Part shown: piece after piece, positions 34,995-42,695 of the stretch
Layout: each line of letters opens with the position of its first letter
Position numbering within the stretch: the first letter of the stretch is position 1
NCBI RefSeq assembly: GCF_025950095.1
Contig: NZ_JAPDDR010000008.1
Span: forward strand, 310,001-374,000
Source: Luteolibacter rhizosphaerae
GTDB taxonomy: Bacteria > Verrucomicrobiota > Verrucomicrobiia > Verrucomicrobiales > Akkermansiaceae
Length of the DNA: 64,000 bases
Direction of reading: 5' to 3'
Translations under genes and position numbers: made by a program
The notes under the pieces: generated by a model
Database searches by the model: none
What the model was told of the DNA's origin: nothing
Seen by the model: the letters and a program-made list of their open reading frames with translations, nothing else

Positions 34995-36011
34995 TCAGGT
35001 TTCCTCGCAGGTGATGATGTGCACGCCACGGTCCTCCTTCCGGACGGAAAATTTCACCGGGAGGAACTTTTCGATCACGGAGATATTCGTGGGGACGTGG
35101 GTATCCGGTGCCATGGTGGCGATGGTGCCGCTACCGGCGAGGGCGAGAGGCAGCAGGAGCTGATCGGCGAGATGACGGCCGACAGGAGCACGGCAGCCGA
35201 TGTAGTCGTTCATGGCCTTGGTCGCGCGATGGGCGACTTTCTCAGCGGAAACGCCGTGTTCGCCGAAGCCGCTGGTCATTTCACGGATGCCGCCGAAGTC
35301 CGCCTCGACCAAGCAGACTATGCCTGCACCGGGTCCTTGCTCGCAGCTTTCCACCACGGCGTCCTTGCAGGGGAATGCCTCGAGAGCGGCGTCGAGCATG
35401 CGGCCGGCGACGGGGAGCGGGATATGACGGGTGAGGACACGGATGCGCGAAGCTTCGAGCTCGGTGCGCTGCACGAGTTCGAGTGGCTGAAGTTGCGGGG
35501 AGGGCTGGATGTTTGCGGTCAAGCAGCCGCCTCCGGCAGGAGCGAAGCCGACGCTCTCGCAGGCGACCGTGGCCTTGCCTCCCATGCGTGCCAGCACGGG
35601 GAGGAAGATCCTTTCGATGAACTCGAAGGGTGGGGCCATGGGGTTGTGGGTGCCGCCTTCGAGTTTGAGCGTGCTGGCGGCATCCGCTTGCCAGAGTGCG
35701 GGCAGCAGGGTCTGGAGCAGGAGCGTGGTGCTGCCTGCCGTGCCGATGGCGAAGTGGTACGATCCGCCTCGTACTTTGCCGGCGCGGAAGACGAGTTCGG
35801 TCGAGCCGATGTCGGCACCATCGGCGGTGCCGCCGGAGATTTCGCAGGCGGCCTTCACGCAGGTGAGGTGCTGGCGCATGAGTCCGGGCCGGGGGCGCTT
35901 GCCGCGGATGTTCGTCATGCGGAAGGGCTGGCCGGTGATCATGGCGAGCGAGAGGGCGGTGCGGAGCATCTGCCCGCCGCCGGAGCTGCCATCGAGCTGG
36001 ATCGGTTTCAT
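34995..36011 (-). CDS. rtcA: RNA 3'-terminal phosphate cyclase
   Basis: RtcA converts RNA 3'-phosphates to 2',3'-cyclic phosphates with ATP. The 338-residue protein has LDGSSGGGQMLRTALSLAMI, RPRPGLMRQHLTCVKAACEI, GSTELVF, GTAGSTTLLLQTLLPAL and APAGGGCL, plus the C-terminal signature DTHVPTNISVIEKFLPVKF. His305 in that signature is the expected AMP-accepting residue. It is the last gene of the rsr-Y RNA-rtcBA operon, 51 bases after rtcB. Together with RtcB, Ro60 and RtcR it forms an RNA-repair system. Confidence 0.96.
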   Translation of the reverse strand: MKPIQLDGSSGGGQMLRTALSLAMITGQPFRMTNIRGKRPRPGLMRQHLTCVKAACEISGGTADGADIGSTELVFRAGKVRGGSYHFAIGTAGSTTLLLQTLLPALWQADAASTLKLEGGTHNPMAPPFEFIERIFLPVLARMGGKATVACESVGFAPAGGGCLTANIQPSPQLQPLELVQRTELEASRIRVLTRHIPLPVAGRMLDAALEAFPCKDAVVESCEQGPGAGIVCLVEADFGGIREMTSGFGEHGVSAEKVAHRATKAMNDYIGCRAPVGRHLADQLLLPLALAGSGTIATMAPDTHVPTNISVIEKFLPVKFSVRKEDRGVHIITCEET

Positions 36012-36062: not shown

Positions 36063-37547
36063 TTAGTCATCGGCTGCGGCCTCGTCCTTGATGACGAAGC
36101 GAGCCTGTAGGCTGGCCACCGTTTCGGCGAGTCCGGCGCTTTCCACGCTGCGGAGGACCTCCGGGAAGCTCTTGTAAGCGTCCGGCGCCTCGTCGATCGG
36201 GTACTTGCGGCAGTTGCTGAGGATGTCCTCGCGGTCGAAGTCCGCATCCACGGACTTCTGGTCGAGCGTGCGGGCTGCGTGCTTGCGGCCCATCCGACGG
36301 CCTGCGCCGTGGTTCACGGACCATGCGGTTCTCTCGGCACCGGCACGGGCTACCATCACGACGGAGCCGTCGCGCGGGTTTCCCGGCAGGAGGATCGGGT
36401 GGCCGGTCTTCTCGAAGGGAGTTCCCGCGAGCGAGTGGTGGCCACCCGGGATCGCACGGGTCGCGCCCTTGCGGTGCACCCAGGACTTGCGGTTATCCAC
36501 GATCTCTTCACGCGCGATGTTGTGCGAGATGAAGTAGACGAGGTTACCCTTGGTTCCCGGCAGCACTTCCTGGAAAGCCTCGAGCACGAGGGCATTGATC
36601 AGGAGGTGATTCACCGTGGCGAAGTTCGCGCCGAGCGACATGTCGTCGATGTAGGCGTTCGCCTCCGGGGTTCCGAGCGGCGCGTACACGAGTTGCTTGT
36701 CGGCGGCCGGGAAGGGCGTGGACCAGGCGCGGAACTTGTTCTCCAAGTCCCGGAACTGTCCCTGCGCAAGCAGGTTCCCTAAGCCTCGGGATCCACAGTG
36801 GCTGAGGAAGGACACGTGGCCATCCTTCAGGCCGAAGGACTTCGCGGTGTCGCGCGCCCACGGACGATCCGTCACGCGGGTGATCTCGCACTCGCCGAAG
36901 TGGTTGCCCCCGCCGTACGACCCGAGCTGGCCGATCTTGTCGGCGAAGTTCCGGATGCGACCCTCTGCCAGAATCTTCTCCAAGCGGGTACGAAGCGCAT
37001 CGTAGGTCCCGTCGTGACCGGTGTGGGTGGAGTCCTCGCAGCGGTAGGCCCACTCCGGTGGGATTCCGAGTGTCTCGCAGACGCGGCGGGTCGCCCCCTC
37101 CGTGACCACGGGCACGCCGGTAATCTCGTTGATGTGGCGCGCCTTCTTCACCGAGCGCTGGCCCTTGCCTGCACCGGTTGGCGTGCGCTCCACGATTGCG
37201 TTGATCAGCGCGCGACGGGTCGCCTTGTCCTTGATCGCGTCCTCCGGGACGTCGAGCTGGAGCAAGCTCATCGAGCACTTGATATCCACGCCGACCGGTC
37301 CGGGATAGATGTGGGTCGGAGAGACCATCACGCAGCCAACCGGCGCGCCGTAACCAGCGTGGGCGTCGGGGTTCAGGATCACATCCGTCACCCCCGGGGC
37401 CATGCGCGAGTTCACCGCCTGCTGCAGGCAGGTTTCGTCGAAGTGATCGCGGATCGCATCGGTTCCGACCACGGTGATCGGCTTGCCGGCATCTCCGGGC
37501 AGGGGGAGGAAGCCGAGGGCTTCGTCGGTTTTATGGATGGTGTGCAT
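36063..37547 (-). CDS. rtcB: RNA-splicing/repair ligase RtcB
   Basis: RtcB joins RNA 2',3'-cyclic-phosphate or 3'-phosphate ends to 5'-OH ends, using GTP and manganese, and repairs cleaved tRNAs. The 494-residue protein has the metal-site motifs NPDAHAGYGAPVGCVM, GVDIKCSMS and GGNHFGECE, further His residues (FLSHCGSRGLG), and the GMP-accepting His segment SVNHGAGRRMGRKHA. Length and motifs are complete, so it should be active. It lies 5 bases after the small membrane-protein gene and upstream of rtcA in the operon. Confidence 0.96.
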   Translation of the reverse strand: MHTIHKTDEALGFLPLPGDAGKPITVVGTDAIRDHFDETCLQQAVNSRMAPGVTDVILNPDAHAGYGAPVGCVMVSPTHIYPGPVGVDIKCSMSLLQLDVPEDAIKDKATRRALINAIVERTPTGAGKGQRSVKKARHINEITGVPVVTEGATRRVCETLGIPPEWAYRCEDSTHTGHDGTYDALRTRLEKILAEGRIRNFADKIGQLGSYGGGNHFGECEITRVTDRPWARDTAKSFGLKDGHVSFLSHCGSRGLGNLLAQGQFRDLENKFRAWSTPFPAADKQLVYAPLGTPEANAYIDDMSLGANFATVNHLLINALVLEAFQEVLPGTKGNLVYFISHNIAREEIVDNRKSWVHRKGATRAIPGGHHSLAGTPFEKTGHPILLPGNPRDGSVVMVARAGAERTAWSVNHGAGRRMGRKHAARTLDQKSVDADFDREDILSNCRKYPIDEAPDAYKSFPEVLRSVESAGLAETVASLQARFVIKDEAAADD

Positions 37548-37862: not shown

Positions 37863-38636
37863 CTAGAGTGTAGCGCGATTGACGAAAGCCGGGGTAAACG
37901 TATCCAACCCGTGCTTCAGTCCCCTGCGGGAATAATTCTGGGTGCCATCTTCTCCGTATTTGGCGAAGAAGTGCAGGAAGGCGGCAGTCGCTCCGAGCTG
38001 CGGCGGAGACAGTAAACGTAACGACTTTTTGTGGTAAGAGTCATTGAGGCCTCCATCGAGAGCGAGCAAGACCCCTTCCGATTCCGCTTGGTAGACATCA
38101 GGAACCGAAGTTAGAAGCGCGTGTCTCATGAAGGCGGGAAGGTGAAATCGAAAGCCATTCCCGTCAAAGAACACCATCGAGTCGGAGAAGTCCGTCAGCT
38201 TTGCTTCGCTTAGATCCTGCCACCGGGTTTCCGGATCTTTCAGCTTGGCTTGGAGATACTCTTTCTCATCTCCGTATTCGTCGATTACCCACGTTTGATG
38301 GAGGGTCACGCCTCCGTCCAGGGCGACCTCGGAGAAAGCCTCTTCAATCATGTCCAGGACCTTGTTGCGAAAGGTATCGACGGACAACCAATCGGCGGAG
38401 CGAGCTTCTTCGCCGGAAGGCGAGCGAACCAGATCGATGTACTGGGATTCACAAGCGCCCATCTTCTCGAAGTTCGCTTGAGCCTGTGCAAGCGGGATCG
38501 GATTGGAGCCATTATGGGGCCATTCTCCGGGAGCATCTTCCCAGAAGCATACAGGGCAGATCTGCATCGTTCCACCCGCGACCCGCTCATAGGTGCGATA
38601 GCCACAGCAGGGGCATGGATGGCGAGTAGAGTTCAT
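37863..38636 (-). CDS. CPCC cysteine-rich domain plus DUF6714-like protein
   Basis: The 257-residue protein begins with a CPCC zinc-ribbon-like domain: CPCCGYRTYERVAGGTMQIC then PVCFWEDAPGEWP, with NGSNPIPLAQAQANFEKMG. The C-terminal half carries the DUF6714-type block LTDFSDSMVFFDGNGFRFHL then PAFMRHALL. CPCC proteins are often found near polymorphic-toxin immunity genes, but no toxin is seen here. ATG 38636 begins exactly at the CPCC domain; a longer frame from 38789 runs through the fifth Y RNA and is rejected. Its location inside the rsr-rtcB operon is unusual. Codon use looks less GC-biased than that of rtcB or rsr. Confidence 0.75.
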   Translation of the reverse strand: MNSTRHPCPCCGYRTYERVAGGTMQICPVCFWEDAPGEWPHNGSNPIPLAQAQANFEKMGACESQYIDLVRSPSGEEARSADWLSVDTFRNKVLDMIEEAFSEVALDGGVTLHQTWVIDEYGDEKEYLQAKLKDPETRWQDLSEAKLTDFSDSMVFFDGNGFRFHLPAFMRHALLTSVPDVYQAESEGVLLALDGGLNDSYHKKSLRLLSPPQLGATAAFLHFFAKYGEDGTQNYSRRGLKHGLDTFTPAFVNRATL

Positions 38637-38663
38637 AAGGCGAGTAAGATTTAATTCCGGAAG

Positions 38664-38796
38664 ATCGTGACAAGGGGTGCGAAGACAGAGTGCGTTTGCC
38701 AATTCCGCCACGGACCTTGCGGTCCGGCGGGACTCGAACCCGCAAGGGCTTTCGCCCGCTATCATTTCAAGATGGAGTCTTCGCTGCATTCACGAC
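38664..38796 (-). ncRNA. Predicted Y RNA 5, tRNA-like, class II (Leu-like) mimic
   Basis: The ends pair: TCGTGA (38790-38795) with TCACGA (38665-38670), plus a G-U pair. An asymmetric internal loop (ATGCA opposite ACCCCTTG) follows, then GCGAAGAC (38777-38784) with GTCTTCGC (38679-38686), both perfect. Inside, in minus-strand order, come a GGGC-GAAA-GCCC hairpin like a tRNA variable arm (38746-38757), a T-arm GCGGGTTCGAGTCCCGC (38727-38743), and a closed acceptor stem CGGACC-GCAA-GGTCCG (38711-38726). A D-arm-like TGGCGGAATTGGCAAACGC (38692-38710) ends the domain. This is a circularly permuted tRNA-Leu-like domain on a Ro60-binding-type stem. Confidence 0.8.
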
Positions 38797-38808
38797 GGGA
38801 TGAGAGAA

Positions 38809-38926
38809 CGGCGACAAGGGGGTGGTGAAACAATTTCCTGCTCTATCCACTGAGCTACCGGACCGTCGATGGTGATCCGGGCCGGACTCGAACCGGCGAC
38901 CAGTGTAATCCTTCCAGCATTCGCGG
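38809..38926 (-). ncRNA. Predicted Y RNA 4, tRNA-like
   Basis: The inner end-stem TGGAAGGATT (38907-38916) pairs with AATTGTTTCA (38826-38835) with one mismatch and two G-U pairs. The outer stem is short (GCGA/TCGC). The shared loop signature GAATGC opposite CCCCCTTGTC is present. Inside are a T-arm GCCGGTTCGAGTCCGGC (38881-38897) and a closed acceptor stem CCGGATC/GGTCCGG with one G-U pair and a 9-base loop (38858-38880). The D-arm is TAGCTCAGTGGATAGAGC (38840-38857), like those of tRNA-Arg. This unit has the weakest outer stem of the array. Confidence 0.72.
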
Positions 38927-38947
38927 GGAATTGATGGGAAAGGGGAA

Positions 38948-39072
38948 TCGCGACAAGGTTTGGGAAGATGCATGTTCCACCGCTCTACCAGGCTGAGCTA
39001 CCTGCTTGCGCAGGGCCGGATTCGAACCGGCGACCAATGGGTTCCGTAATGTAATCTTCCAGGCATTCGCGA
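38948..39072 (-). ncRNA. Predicted Y RNA 3, tRNA-like
   Basis: The ends pair as TCGCGA (39067-39072) with TCGCGA (38948-38953). The internal loop GAATGCCT opposite AAACCTTG follows, then GGAAGAT (39054-39060) with ATCTTCC (38963-38969), perfect. Inside are a T-arm GCCGGTTCGAATCCGGC (39015-39031), a closed acceptor stem CCTGC-GCAA-GCAGG (39001-39014), and a D-arm TAGCTCAGCCTGGTAGAGC (38982-39000) typical of class I tRNAs. The order T-arm, acceptor, D-arm shows circular permutation; no anticodon is present. Confidence 0.82.
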
Positions 39073-39078
39073 AGGAGG

Positions 39079-39204
39079 CCGCCGGCAAGGGGATGGCGAG
39101 ACATTGGGGCCGGCGAGCTGCCACTGCTCCACGCCCGCTTGCGCGGTGGCGGGATTCGAACCCGCGGCCTCCGGTGTGCTTGTAGTCCCGCCGGCATCCG
39201 GCAG
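39079..39204 (-). ncRNA. Predicted Y RNA 2, tRNA-like (Met-like D-arm)
   Basis: The ends pair as CTGCCGG (39198-39204) with CCGGCGG (39079-39085). The loop signature ATGC opposite ATCCCCTTG follows, then GGCGGGAC (39185-39192) with GTCTCGCC (39095-39102), one G-U pair. Inside are a T-arm GCGGGTTCGAATCCCGC (39149-39165) and a GCAA-capped hairpin CCGC-GCAA-GCGG with flanking pairs CCAC/GTGG (about 39131-39148). The D-arm-like GAGCAGTGGCAGCTC lies within 39113-39131 and resembles that of initiator/methionine tRNAs. Confidence 0.78.
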
Positions 39205-39216
39205 TGAAAAGGGGGT

Positions 39217-39311
39217 TGCCGCCACGACGGCGAGGATACGGGAGACATCGGGTTTTCAGGCCCGAACGGTTTTGGTGACGTGTAGTCTCACGAGCATCCG
39301 TCGTGGCGGCA
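39217..39311 (-). ncRNA. Predicted Y RNA 1, without tRNA-like domain
   Basis: The ends pair over 14 bp: GCCGCCACGACGG (39298-39310) is the exact reverse complement of CCGTCGTGGCGGC (39218-39230), plus one more pair outside. The signature GGATGC recurs on the 5' strand, opposite a more diverged ATCCTCG, followed by GAGAC (39285-39289) with GTCTC (39242-39246). The interior lacks T- and D-arms and instead has a small CGGG/CCCG hairpin. It begins 8 bases after the rsr stop codon. Position and structure suit the canonical Ro60-bound Y RNA of the set. Confidence 0.72.
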
Positions 39312-39319
39312 GAGTTTCC

Positions 39320-40894
39320 TTAGGCAATGTTCATGCGTTCGGTTAGAGGTTGGGAGTTGATCTCGCGGACCCAGTGATCGCTTCCGTCCTCTCCGGCCGC
39401 GAAGGCCGCGATGAGGTCGAAGACGGTGTCGCTGAATCCGGCGACGTTCAGGATATCCTTCCGGTCCGGAGCTTGGGTCGTGGTGTTCGGCACCAGGTCG
39501 ATGCACACGAGCCGCGCCTTCGGGTTGCGGGTCTTGAGCTTCTCCCATTCGTGCATCATTCCCGTTCCGCGTCCGCGGTTCGGATCCGCCCAGGATTCGT
39601 TGTCGGAAACATAGATCACCAGGTCCGGTGCCGACTTTGCGGCATTGAGCTTGGCGAGCGGTGCGGAGCAGTTCGTTCCACCTCCACCGATCCGGGCCAA
39701 CTTGGTCGCGTTCGTCATCACGGAGTCGCGCGGGTTGAGCCGTAGATCCACGACATCGCACTCGAAGGGCAGGACTTCCGCGCTGCGGTTCTTCCGGAGG
39801 AAGGCCGCGGCCACGAGAGCCGCCACGTCGATGCAGCGCACCGCGGAGCTCGCGCCCTTGCGGTAGCCCGTCGCCGGAGAGCTCATGGAGCCGGATACGT
39901 CCGGGCAGACGACCACCCGGCCTTCGACCGCGGGGACATTGTCGAGCGCGACTTCCATCGCGTCCTGCAGGGCTTCCCGCAGGATTTTCGGCATGTCCTT
40001 GCCGGTATTCAGGTAGGCGATCATGAGCTGGTAGGGGAAGACCCGGGAGCGCCGGATCTTCTCCGGATCCGCCAGGCGTGCGGCGAGGAAGCGGGTGACA
40101 TGGGAGTCCTCCAGCACCTTGTGGCGCAGGAAGGTGTTCAGATTCATCCGGGTGGTCTGCCAGGAGGCCGTCACGGCGATGGCGGTCCACTCCCGGCGAC
40201 CCAGCTCCAGTGCGGTGAGCATCTGGTAGGGGACATCGGGAACATCGCCTTCGCGGGTGGCCTTCCAGTTTTCGAAGCGCTGCAGGGCCTGCGGAAGGGA
40301 CTCAGTCTGATACGGCTTGCCCAAGAGACAGGCGTAGAAGGCTTCCCGCGTGGCATCGGCCGGGCGCGGGTGGACCATCCTCACCACGTCTGCCAGCGAC
40401 GGGTTATTGCCGACGGAGGCGTCCAGCAGTTGGCGCTCCGTGGCGCGCTCGAGCCACTGGCGGACCAAGCGCTTCGGCGCGGAGCCGAGCGACTTGCGAC
40501 CGGTCACGCCGGAGCGCAGGATCTGCACGAAGTTCCTGAGCATCTTCCCGTTGTCGATGACCTGCGGGAAGATTTCGGTGAGCCGGTCGAGATCGCGGGT
40601 GGCGAGCACCGCGCAGAGCAGGGCCGGCATGTCCTTCATGTAGCCCCGGCGCCGGGCGTAGAGCGCCGTGCGAGCGAGAAAGTCGGCATCCACCTGGCGG
40701 GCAGCTTCCAGCACACGCTCGAGCTGCAATTCCGGGGAGGCGTAGTAGGTCCGGCCGAAGCATCCCGTCACCGCCATCCGTGCGAGGGCCGCACGGGGCG
40801 ACAACTCGTAGGCGACCGCGCCGGCATCGTTCCGGGTCGTGGCCTGCGGGATCAGAGCGCCCCGCAGGGTTTGGAATAGGTTCTTGTTTGCCAT
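39320..40894 (-). CDS. rsr: Ro60-family (TROVE domain) RNA-binding protein Rsr
   Basis: Ro60 orthologues form a HEAT-like ring that binds misfolded RNA ends and Y RNAs and, in bacteria, works with exonucleases in RNA degradation. The 524-residue protein has the TROVE ring (FGRTYYASPELQLERVLEAA, LPQALQRFENWKA, DVPYQMLTALELG). A C-terminal von Willebrand A domain has the metal-ion site VVCPDVSGSMSSP (about residue 333) and YVSDNESWADPN. ATG 40894 (MANKNLFQTLRGALIPQ) is chosen over an in-frame extension to 41242, which overlaps rtcR. It is the first gene after the sigma-54 promoter. Confidence 0.95.
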   Translation of the reverse strand: MANKNLFQTLRGALIPQATTRNDAGAVAYELSPRAALARMAVTGCFGRTYYASPELQLERVLEAARQVDADFLARTALYARRRGYMKDMPALLCAVLATRDLDRLTEIFPQVIDNGKMLRNFVQILRSGVTGRKSLGSAPKRLVRQWLERATERQLLDASVGNNPSLADVVRMVHPRPADATREAFYACLLGKPYQTESLPQALQRFENWKATREGDVPDVPYQMLTALELGRREWTAIAVTASWQTTRMNLNTFLRHKVLEDSHVTRFLAARLADPEKIRRSRVFPYQLMIAYLNTGKDMPKILREALQDAMEVALDNVPAVEGRVVVCPDVSGSMSSPATGYRKGASSAVRCIDVAALVAAAFLRKNRSAEVLPFECDVVDLRLNPRDSVMTNATKLARIGGGGTNCSAPLAKLNAAKSAPDLVIYVSDNESWADPNRGRGTGMMHEWEKLKTRNPKARLVCIDLVPNTTTQAPDRKDILNVAGFSDTVFDLIAAFAAGEDGSDHWVREINSQPLTERMNIA

Positions 40895-40936
40895 CTTGGG
40901 AGATCCGCCGGTTTGCTGCGGACAGATGGAGTATTG

Positions 40937-40952
40937 GCACTGGCCGTGCCAA
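40937..40952 (-). promoter_or_regulatory. Sigma-54 promoter of the rsr-rtcBA operon
   Basis: On the minus strand TTGGCACGGCCAGTGC matches TGGCACG-N4-TTGC with the invariant GG and GC 10 bases apart. Transcription would start near 40925, about 30 bases before rsr. TTGGCAC and GTGCCAA flanking the centre form a perfect inverted repeat, so the plus strand carries the same spacing. Confidence 0.85.
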
Positions 40953-41071
40953 GCGGATGGATTGGCATCCGGGTTCGATGGTAATGAATTGATATTCAGT
41001 GAAATAATCCCGAGGTCCTTGTTGAAGAGCTCTCCCTTATGATTTTGTGATTCCAAGAATAATAGCCGTTT

Positions 41072-41087
41072 GGATAAGCTATTATCC
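41072..41087. promoter_or_regulatory. Candidate RtcR upstream activator site
   Basis: GGATAA-GCTA-TTATCC is an inverted repeat with 6-bp arms, immediately before the rtcR GTG and about 150 bases upstream of the predicted rsr transcription start. That distance suits an enhancer for a sigma-54 activator. It could also autoregulate rtcR. Confidence 0.5.
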
Positions 41088-42695
41088 GTGAAGAGAGTGA
41101 TTATTGGAATGCTCGGCACCCGGCTTGACACGGGGATCTTTCCCTCGCGTTGGGATGAGTGGCGGCCGTCGGTTTCTCTCTTCCAGCACGAGGAACTCCT
41201 TTTTGACCGCTTCGAATTTCTAGCGGAGCCCCAGTACACCAAGCTGCGGGATCAGGTGGCGGATGATGTCCGGCTGATCTCGCCGGAGACGGAGCTCCGC
41301 CATCACGAGGTGGACTTCGGCCGCGATCCTTGGGACCTCGAAAAGGTCTATAGCGTGCTTCACGACTGGGCGCGGGCCTACCCCTTCGATCCGGAGCGGG
41401 AGGAGTACTTCGTCCACATCACGACCGGAACGCACATTGTTCAGATCTCGCTGTTCCTGCTGGTGGAGGCGGGCTTCATCCCCGGTGTATTGGTCCAGAC
41501 CGCTCCGCCGAACGGCGGCACCCGGCCGAAGCACAAGGCTCCGGGCCGTTATGCGCTGATCGACTTGGATCTATCGAAGTACGATGCGCTTAGTACGCGC
41601 TTCGCGAAGGACCAGGGTGAGACGGCGGACTTCCTGAAGAGCGGGATCGCCACGCGCAACCGCGGCTTCAACACCCTGATCGACCGCATCGAGCAGGTGG
41701 CCCTGCGATCGCAGGCCCCGGTGCTGCTCACGGGCCCGACCGGTGCGGGCAAGTCGCACCTGGCGAGGCGCATTTTCGAGCTGCGGAAGCAGCGGGGTGG
41801 TCTGCGCGGCTCCTTCGTCGAAGTGAACTGCGCCACCCTCACCGGGGACACCGCGGCCTCCGCGCTCTTCGGTCATGTGCGGGGCTCCTTCACCGGAGCT
41901 CAGAAGGACCGCCCCGGCCTGCTGCGCGAGGCGGACGGCGGCTTGCTCTTCCTCGATGAGATCGGCGAGCTGGGCCTGGACGAGCAGGCGATGCTGCTGC
42001 GCGCGCTTGAAGACAAGACCTTCCTGCCGGTGGGCGCGGATCGCCCGGTGAAGAGCGATTTCCAACTCATCGCAGGAACAAACCGCGATCTGCGGGAAGC
42101 CGTGGTAAAGGGACGCTTCCGCGAAGATCTGCTGGCACGGATTCACCTCTGGACCTTCGCCCTGCCTTCACTGGCGCAGAGGCGAGAGGACATTGCTCCG
42201 AATCTCGATTTCGAACTAGAGCGCTTCAGTGGATCGCAGGGGAGGAAGGCGAGCATCAACCGCGAGGCCCGCCAGGCATTCCTGCGTTTTGCTGAATCAC
42301 CGGACACTCCATGGTCGGGAAACTTCCGAGATCTGAATGCAGCGGTGACCCGCATGGCCACCTTGGCACCGCGCGGACGTATCCGGGTGGAAGAGGTCGA
42401 GGAAGAGGTCCTGCGATTGCGCGAGAGCTGGAAGAGACCGGGTGGGGGGATCACGAGAACGGAAGAGTATGATCTTGAGGATCTGTTAGGTCCGGCGGCG
42501 GAGGAGATCGATCCCTTCGACCGCGTGCAGCTCGCGCATGTGGTAGCGGTCTGCCGGCGTAGCAAGACGCTCTCCGATGCCGGGCGCGAGCTCTTCGCCG
42601 TCTCGCGGCAGAAGCGGGCCGTGGCAAATGATGCGGACCGGCTGAAGAAGTATCTCGCCCGATTCCAGCTCGACTTCGCCCGTTGCCGGGAATGA
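41088..42695 (+). CDS. rtcR: Sigma-54-dependent RNA-repair regulator RtcR
   Basis: RtcR activates the rtc operon when its N-terminal CARF-like sensor binds an RNA-damage ligand. The 535-residue protein starts VKRVIIGMLGTRLDTG with the RtcR-specific domain (SRWDEWRPSVSLFQHEELLF, VHITTGTHIVQISLFLLVEA). The AAA+ domain has Walker A GPTGAGKSHLA, the sigma-54 contact loop GSFTGA and Walker B GGLLFLDEIGEL. A C-terminal DNA-binding region ends it (SKTLSDAGRELFAVSRQKRA). GTG 41088 is chosen because the conserved RRVxIGxLGT start follows; an in-frame TTG at 41070 overlaps the palindrome. It is divergent from rsr. Confidence 0.95.
   Translation: MKRVIIGMLGTRLDTGIFPSRWDEWRPSVSLFQHEELLFDRFEFLAEPQYTKLRDQVADDVRLISPETELRHHEVDFGRDPWDLEKVYSVLHDWARAYPFDPEREEYFVHITTGTHIVQISLFLLVEAGFIPGVLVQTAPPNGGTRPKHKAPGRYALIDLDLSKYDALSTRFAKDQGETADFLKSGIATRNRGFNTLIDRIEQVALRSQAPVLLTGPTGAGKSHLARRIFELRKQRGGLRGSFVEVNCATLTGDTAASALFGHVRGSFTGAQKDRPGLLREADGGLLFLDEIGELGLDEQAMLLRALEDKTFLPVGADRPVKSDFQLIAGTNRDLREAVVKGRFREDLLARIHLWTFALPSLAQRREDIAPNLDFELERFSGSQGRKASINREARQAFLRFAESPDTPWSGNFRDLNAAVTRMATLAPRGRIRVEEVEEEVLRLRESWKRPGGGITRTEEYDLEDLLGPAAEEIDPFDRVQLAHVVAVCRRSKTLSDAGRELFAVSRQKRAVANDADRLKKYLARFQLDFARCRE

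Follow-up and report, generated by a model that had tools for sequence, protein, structure and literature searches.

The gene for the Ro60/Rsr protein (rsr) of Luteolibacter rhizosphaerae is followed by an array of five small units that are almost certainly Y RNAs, and model match and comparison with relatives indicate that four of them carry a circularly permuted tRNA body, in which the Y stem takes the place of the anticodon loop. By the same comparison the bodies appear to bear different tRNA likenesses, at least those of initiator and leucine tRNAs, which recur across relatives and have probably been kept by selection. On balance we favor an account in which these Y RNAs form a cassette within an RNA-repair operon under RtcR control and act as tRNA-shaped adapters or decoys.

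Results

The window analyzed here is a stretch of 64,000 nucleotides, and its features are listed in Table 1. A first-pass annotation had proposed five minus-strand Y RNAs at 38664-39311, and the units proved to be real. The 5' loop motif that it described, GGATGC or GAATGC, occurs in all five, and the 3' motif CTTG(T/C)C, preceded by C residues, occurs in four, having diverged in unit 1. The gaps between consecutive units 1 to 5 are 12, 6, 20 and 8 nt, and unit 1 lies 8 nt from the rsr reading frame.

Table 1. Array units and neighboring features, in window positions. E-values are from a 2-kb search with the Rfam YrlA model (RF02553).
Feature	Position	Strand	Description
Unit 1	39217..39311	-	Y RNA with 14-bp outer stem; no tRNA module; loop strands GGATGC / CCTCGCC
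Unit 2	39079..39204	-	YrlA-type Y RNA, initiator-tRNA-like permuted body; YrlA 38.8 bits, E 1.6e-6
Unit 2 D-arm	39114-39131	-	A11 at 39128, U24 at 39116
Unit 3	38948..39072	-	YrlA-type Y RNA, elongator-type D-arm; YrlA 71.2 bits over 38944-39073, E 7.5e-16
Unit 4	38805..38927	-	putative hybrid of two YrlA-type units, joint at T-arm; YrlA 59.7 bits, E 1.6e-12
Unit 5	38664..38796	-	YrlA-type Y RNA, leucine-like body; YrlA 38.0 bits over 38661-38773, E 2.9e-6
Unit 5 variable arm	38746-38757	-	
Unit 5 D-arm	38692-38710	-	
rtcA	34995..36011	-	RNA 3'-phosphate cyclase; NCBIfam equivalog 401.2 bits, cut-off 352
rtcB	36063..37547	-	RNA ligase; Pfam RtcB 331 bits; no NCBIfam cut-off passed
Small gene	37863-38636	-	Cys_rich_CPCC and DUF6714 domains; between array and rtcB
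rsr	39320..40894	-	Ro60/Rsr protein; divergent TROVE part and vWA domain
Sigma-54-like -24/-12 box	40936..40951	-	TGGCACGGCCAGTGCC; starts 57 nt before rsr; 10/12 consensus positions
rtcR	41070..42695	+	sigma-54-dependent RNA-repair operon activator; divergent; NCBIfam RNA_repair_RtcR 762.7 bits, cut-off 650

The Y RNA reading is supported by the model match, by the location beside the Ro60/Rsr gene and by covariation in relatives. A covariance-model search and a look for compensatory changes in related genomes had been proposed as checks, and both bear the reading out. Matches to the YrlA model cover units 2 to 5, of which only unit 3 reaches the curated cut-off of 69 bits, while the other three fall below it yet are significant, and these four are the only YrlA matches at E <=0.001 in the whole 6.2-Mb genome. 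Unit 1 gave no Rfam match in the YrlA search. The permuted module order of YrlA (T-arm, acceptor hairpin, D-arm) is present in units 2 to 5 and absent from unit 1. Compensatory changes were found in the alignments of initiator-type and E-type units described below.

The predicted Rsr protein scores 66.9 bits with the vWA_Ro60 model (cut-off 27.7) and 22.0 with TROVE (cut-off 23), and it matches the structure of Deinococcus radiodurans Rsr (2nvo) at full length (E 6.3e-24, residues 16-502); its score with the NCBIfam Rsr equivalog is 95 bits against a cut-off of 900. Among the matches listed (the best 120 of 8000), identity is 79% with Haloferula sp. BvORR071 and 77% with Luteolibacter flavescens. 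The gene order is that of a predicted operon, rsr - Y array - rtcB - rtcA, under the control of RtcR, with a putative promoter proposed from a sequence match. With graded scoring, a sigma-54 box scoring >=10 was found in 35 of 53 rtcR-linked loci and in about 1% of shuffles; a strict sigma-54 pattern before rsr was present at only 2 of 78 loci, and the clearer graded scoring was used instead. Elsewhere in the window, an Acido-Lenti-1 RNA matches at 877-923 on the plus strand (46 bits, cut-off 37).

Folding and the probable hybrid character of unit 4

The first-pass annotation had also described paired ends and an inner stem in every unit. In minimum-energy folds this holds for units 1, 2, 3 and 5, which have outer stems of 14, 7, 6 and 7 bp, respectively, each with an inner stem, and fails for unit 4, in the predicted fold of which the outer and inner (Ro) stems are absent. 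The internal loop of the GAATGC / CTTGTC type with its end stem is likewise found in units 1 (where the 3' strand is a variant one), 2, 3 and 5 and not in unit 4, so that four of the five units look intact in these predictions. Compared with shuffled sequences, units 1 and 5 alone have better fold energies, with z-scores of -5.1 and -3.25, respectively; the z-scores of units 2, 3 and 4 are -0.11, -0.59 and +1.08. The middle parts of units 2 and 5 are not predicted in tRNA shape by the minimum-energy fold, and the tRNA shape proposed for them rests on comparison.

A stem descriptor consisting of the Ro motifs and two stems, at a threshold of 44, retains 140 of 148 candidate units at the 34 family loci described below; unit 1 scores 69. 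At this threshold shuffled arrays totaling 38,095 nt gave no match, and rsr coding sequence (72,000 nt) gave one. In the GC-rich window, searched on both strands, the descriptor recovers four of the five array units together with seven other matches, and therefore single matches mean little and clusters much.

When unit 4 is split at the T-loop, each half best resembles a different unit class of relatives: the eight units that match its first half best take ranks 20-56 of 95 when compared with the second half, and for the eight that match the second half best the ranks on the first are 33-87. The simplest reading is that unit 4 would be a fusion, formed by a recombination deletion between neighboring units through their shared T-arm, which would explain the weak stems that the first-pass annotation had seen in it. 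Unit 4 has an elongator-type D-arm, and its acceptor strand is followed by ACCA.

Y RNA arrays in relatives

A sample of 195 genomes of the family contained 37 with an Rsr match, of which 34 loci were examined, G125, G137 and G150 being left out as partial matches. Y units lie downstream of rsr at all 34 loci, amounting to 145 units at 2-9 per locus after three of the 148 candidates (G127 unit 1, G071 units 9 and 10) were dropped. The array is followed by rtcB at each of the 33 loci where that gene is in reach, the 34th stretch being too short, and in 20 of the 34 loci the first unit is of the kind without a T-arm.

A wider scan, with one genome per species, kept 80 of 247 Rsr loci, among them loci of Verrucomicrobiota, Acidobacteriota, Planctomycetes and Rhodobacteraceae; 17 of the 80 were judged to come from genomes counted in the set of 34. 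Within 2.3 kb of rsr, two or more candidate units were found at 63 loci, one at nine, which may be due to chance, and none at eight. Y RNA arrays are thus usual at Rsr loci.

YrlA matches occur in 77 genomes, 35 of which belong to the 37 with an Rsr match. The other 42, all at <=44.5 bits except G151, were kept out of the counts and, G151 apart, were presumed to be tandem tRNA genes. The G151 match (G151:C359:11321-11438, 64.5 bits) lies in a genome of the same family without an Rsr match and may reflect either an assembly gap or an orphan Y RNA. Two or three YrlA matches each were also seen in G362, G365, G372 and G390 (L131-L134), members of another family in this order.

Classes of tRNA-like bodies

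The tRNA-like units run in the order Y stem, anticodon-stem remnant, variable region, T-arm, loop-closed acceptor stem, D-arm and Y stem. A T-arm is present in 107 of the 145 units and absent from 38, including unit 1 of the window. By D-arm, 16 units are initiator-type, 11 leucine-type and 63 elongator-type, and 17 have a T-arm but no D-arm of these kinds. A hairpin of unit 1 was considered as an anticodon arm and rejected by eye, since its loops differ in relatives.

Isotype likeness was scored by D-arm alignment alone; a combined score for the D-half and T-half was dropped because the T-stem, which is not isotype-specific, swamped it and assigned unit 2 to Gly or Pro. Unit 3 has a Pro-like D-loop (CAGCCTGG), and among the 63 elongator-type units no single isotype can be assigned by D-arm, Pro being best in 14.

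The pair R11:Y24 marks initiator tRNAs. Unit positions follow the corresponding tRNA numbering. The best D-arm isotype of unit 2 is fMet, with a score of 20 against 15 for Pro. There is one initiator-type unit at each of 16 of the 34 loci, and pair 11:24 is A-U in all 16 units, a constancy that is partly by choice, as the class was picked in part by a GAG..CTC motif. Pair 13:22 varies in the same units (CG in 12, UA in three, UG in one). The best D-arm isotype is fMet in 12 of the 16 and Gln in three, with one tie. A parse made without the GAG..CTC motif returned 17 units with R11:Y24, of which 13 are initiator-type and four are misparses or other D-arms; this parse misread unit 2 of the window, taking its inner stem too long. 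The genome itself has 46 distinct tRNAs, of which the initiator alone shows a true R11:Y24, an apparent case in Ser(tga) being a misparse.

The initiator-type alignment (A2) comprises 14 units chosen by pattern and two by eye. In it, 94.4% of cells pair, and 19 pairs show double changes (shuffled mean 7.9, reached in 0 of 500 shuffles, with kinship ignored); sliding the partners by 1-3 columns lowers pairing to 34-58%. The detector itself demanded an outer and an inner stem, so that the independent evidence of structure comes from the T, acceptor, anticodon-remnant and extra-hairpin helices. The first three of these covary in A2. The RNAalifold pairs 11-13 with 26-28 in this alignment look spurious and were not used.

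The E-type alignment (A4) holds 14 of 15 picked units (G006 unit 5 was excluded) and six added by eye, including unit 4 of the window. Of its cells 94.7% pair, and double changes are seen in 15 pairs (shuffled mean 6.5, reached in 0 of 500, kinship again ignored), with pairing of 25-47% when partners are slid by 1-3 columns. Here too, RNAalifold pairs (17-19 with 50-52) look spurious and were left unused.

For unit 5, the best D-arm isotype is Leu (30 against 13), as it is for all 11 leucine-type units, which are spread over 11 of the 34 loci; by eye, a variable-arm hairpin is present in 10 of the 11. Their alignment (A3) contains 11 of 12 picked units, G101 unit 5 having been excluded as a chance motif in a unit without a T-arm, and it shows little covariation (8 of 31 pairs). 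All four leucine-type units with a UUCGA-type T-loop, unit 5 of the window included, have GG in the D-loop, and all seven with a UA(A/U)CCAA T-loop, two of them nearly identical, have a short D-loop without GG. The T-loop and D-loop, which form the elbow, thus change as a pair, seven against four without exception, in a count that ignores kinship. Among other parsed units with a UUC T-loop, GG is found in the D-loop of 88 of 90.

Discussion

The model match and the comparison together give the intact units an outer stem of the Rsr type and four of the five units a permuted tRNA body. Such modules could serve as tRNA-shaped adapters or decoys that can neither be cleaved in an anticodon loop nor be charged. 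They may either compete for proteins that recognize the bodies of particular tRNAs or deliver such proteins to Rsr and its partners, with anticodon nucleases and modification or repair enzymes as candidates. This function for the set as a whole is a tentative proposal, a little short of an even chance. That YrlA may inhibit an anticodon nuclease has been suggested in PMC7790460, where the RtcR ligand is also treated. We place the complete explanation only slightly above even because 4 of the 16 initiator-type units are not best matched by fMet and the leucine-type units covary little. A more far-reaching possibility, speculative and rather unlikely as it stands, is an isotype-coded set of mimics in which each Y RNA shields, reports on or routes one tRNA or tRNA class during anticodon-nuclease attack; other phyla would add near-complete spare sets of tRNA genes at this locus, and Rsr loci would be tRNA-emergency islands. 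Several observations count against the favored explanation of adapters or decoys: the array tolerates the seemingly broken unit 4, the folds of units 2 and 3 do not surpass those of shuffles, the elongator-type units lack a single isotype, the initiator class was chosen in part by the motif that is reported as constant, and many loci are without the initiator or the leucine type.

The main alternative is that the units are generic tethers with one job for all, which would be to connect Rsr with PNPase or to gate its ring, and that their tRNA differences reflect drift after unit duplication or capture of tRNA pieces. We give it a lesser though real chance. A precedent is D. radiodurans, where a Y RNA is described as tethering Rsr to PNPase (PMC7790460, PMC8394870), and the predominance of undifferentiated elongator-type units (63 of the 107 with a T-arm), the recombination visible in unit 4 and the way in which unit classes come and go between loci (18 of 34 lack the initiator type and 23 of 34 the leucine type) are all in keeping with it. 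Free drift, however, would not be expected to leave A11:U24 in 16 of 16 units beside a covarying pair 13:22, nor does a leucine D-arm held constant in 11 units, with a paired change of the elbow loops, resemble it. It is also conceivable, if improbable, that the stems act inside the operon transcript as processing sites or as barriers between rsr and rtcB, and that the released pieces have no separate role. The position of the array between these genes at all 33 family loci with rtcB in reach agrees with such a role, for which detailed, covarying tRNA-like bodies would nevertheless be unnecessary, and in the Rhodobacteraceae loci L227 and L229 Y units are still present although rtcB lies on the other side of rsr.

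The array could hardly be a decayed tandem tRNA gene cluster in which a T-arm, a spacer and the next D-arm mimic a permuted tRNA, a reading that we strongly disfavor. YrlA matches below the cut-off do occur in Escherichia coli, Bacillus subtilis and other control genomes, and ACCA follows the acceptor strand in 7 of the 20 E-type units, with which an origin of these units from tandem tRNA genes would fit. Against it, ARAGORN finds no tRNA gene and no complete cloverleaf with an anticodon loop in the 64-kb window, Ro-type loop strands flank all five units, the array lies beside rsr and the permuted structure covaries.

The closest known counterpart of the favored RtcR-controlled cassette is the Salmonella rsr-yrlBA-rtcBA operon, which has the same operon genes, control by RtcR and sigma-54, and a Ro-binding stem joined to a permuted tRNA-like module (PMC7790460, PMC9879122). 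The first-pass annotation had singled out five Y RNAs as more than the well-studied cases have; the number does exceed the two of Salmonella, but it is ordinary for this family, in which relatives have up to nine. In contrast to Salmonella YrlA, the modules here differ in the tRNA that they resemble, one of them being initiator-like and another having a variable arm, and one unit has no tRNA module. The Salmonella authors consider more than one possible role for the tRNA-like domain in bacterial Y RNAs (PMC7790460). Because the modules of a single operon differ in tRNA likeness, the role of the tRNA look-alikes becomes testable: binding of different proteins by different modules would mean that the mimicry is isotype-specific. 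In the literature searched we recognized no report of multi-Y-RNA arrays or of isotype differences among them, which may nevertheless have been published. The Rsr of D. radiodurans is of the same family as the one here, and the Ro-type stem is common to both systems; the Y RNA studied in that species tethers PNPase (PMC8394870), and the match of the Rfam Deinococcus Y RNA model here extends over only 32 nt and stays below its cut-off (23.8 against 80 bits).

At 16 of the 80 Rsr loci (L183, L185, L192, L194, L195, L199, L205, L211-L216, L220, L222 and L223), 5-32 tRNA genes lie upstream of rsr within 5 kb, all on the rsr strand except for one call in L205, and the five richest arrays hold 19 or 20 named isotypes. 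Most of these loci are acidobacterial, hence they do not represent 16 independent events. They gave no rtcR match and no sigma-54 score of 10, and downstream of rsr no locus of the 80 has more than three tRNA genes. Such arrays have the appearance of reserve tRNA sets linked to Rsr and Y RNAs, and the presence of tRNA arrays beside rsr supports tRNA damage as a common theme of Rsr loci. A comparable arrangement is known from Anabaena, where a tRNA operon and rtcB are induced together under TrcR in translational stress (PMC10272220). That operon consists of real tRNA genes, whereas the window contains mimics in place of tRNA genes, and the term Ro60 is absent from the text of the Anabaena paper.

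Some units at other Rsr loci depart from the common plan. In Rhodobacteraceae, L227, L228, L229 and L233 have 2-3 real tRNA genes among the Y units downstream of rsr, those in L227 and L233 being for Pro, Asn and Gln. In one unit each of L169, L171, L173, L181, L225 and L228, the body seems by eye to be opened at the D-loop, with the anticodon arm inside. The insert of L192 unit 3 and that of L222 unit 3 are predicted by ARAGORN to be unpermuted tRNAs with an anticodon loop, Ser(tga) and Ile(gat), respectively, and the acidobacterial L183 unit 3, L199 unit 2 and L220 unit 3 have in common a non-tRNA insert, GGGCCTCG..GTGAT..CCCC..GGCGG.
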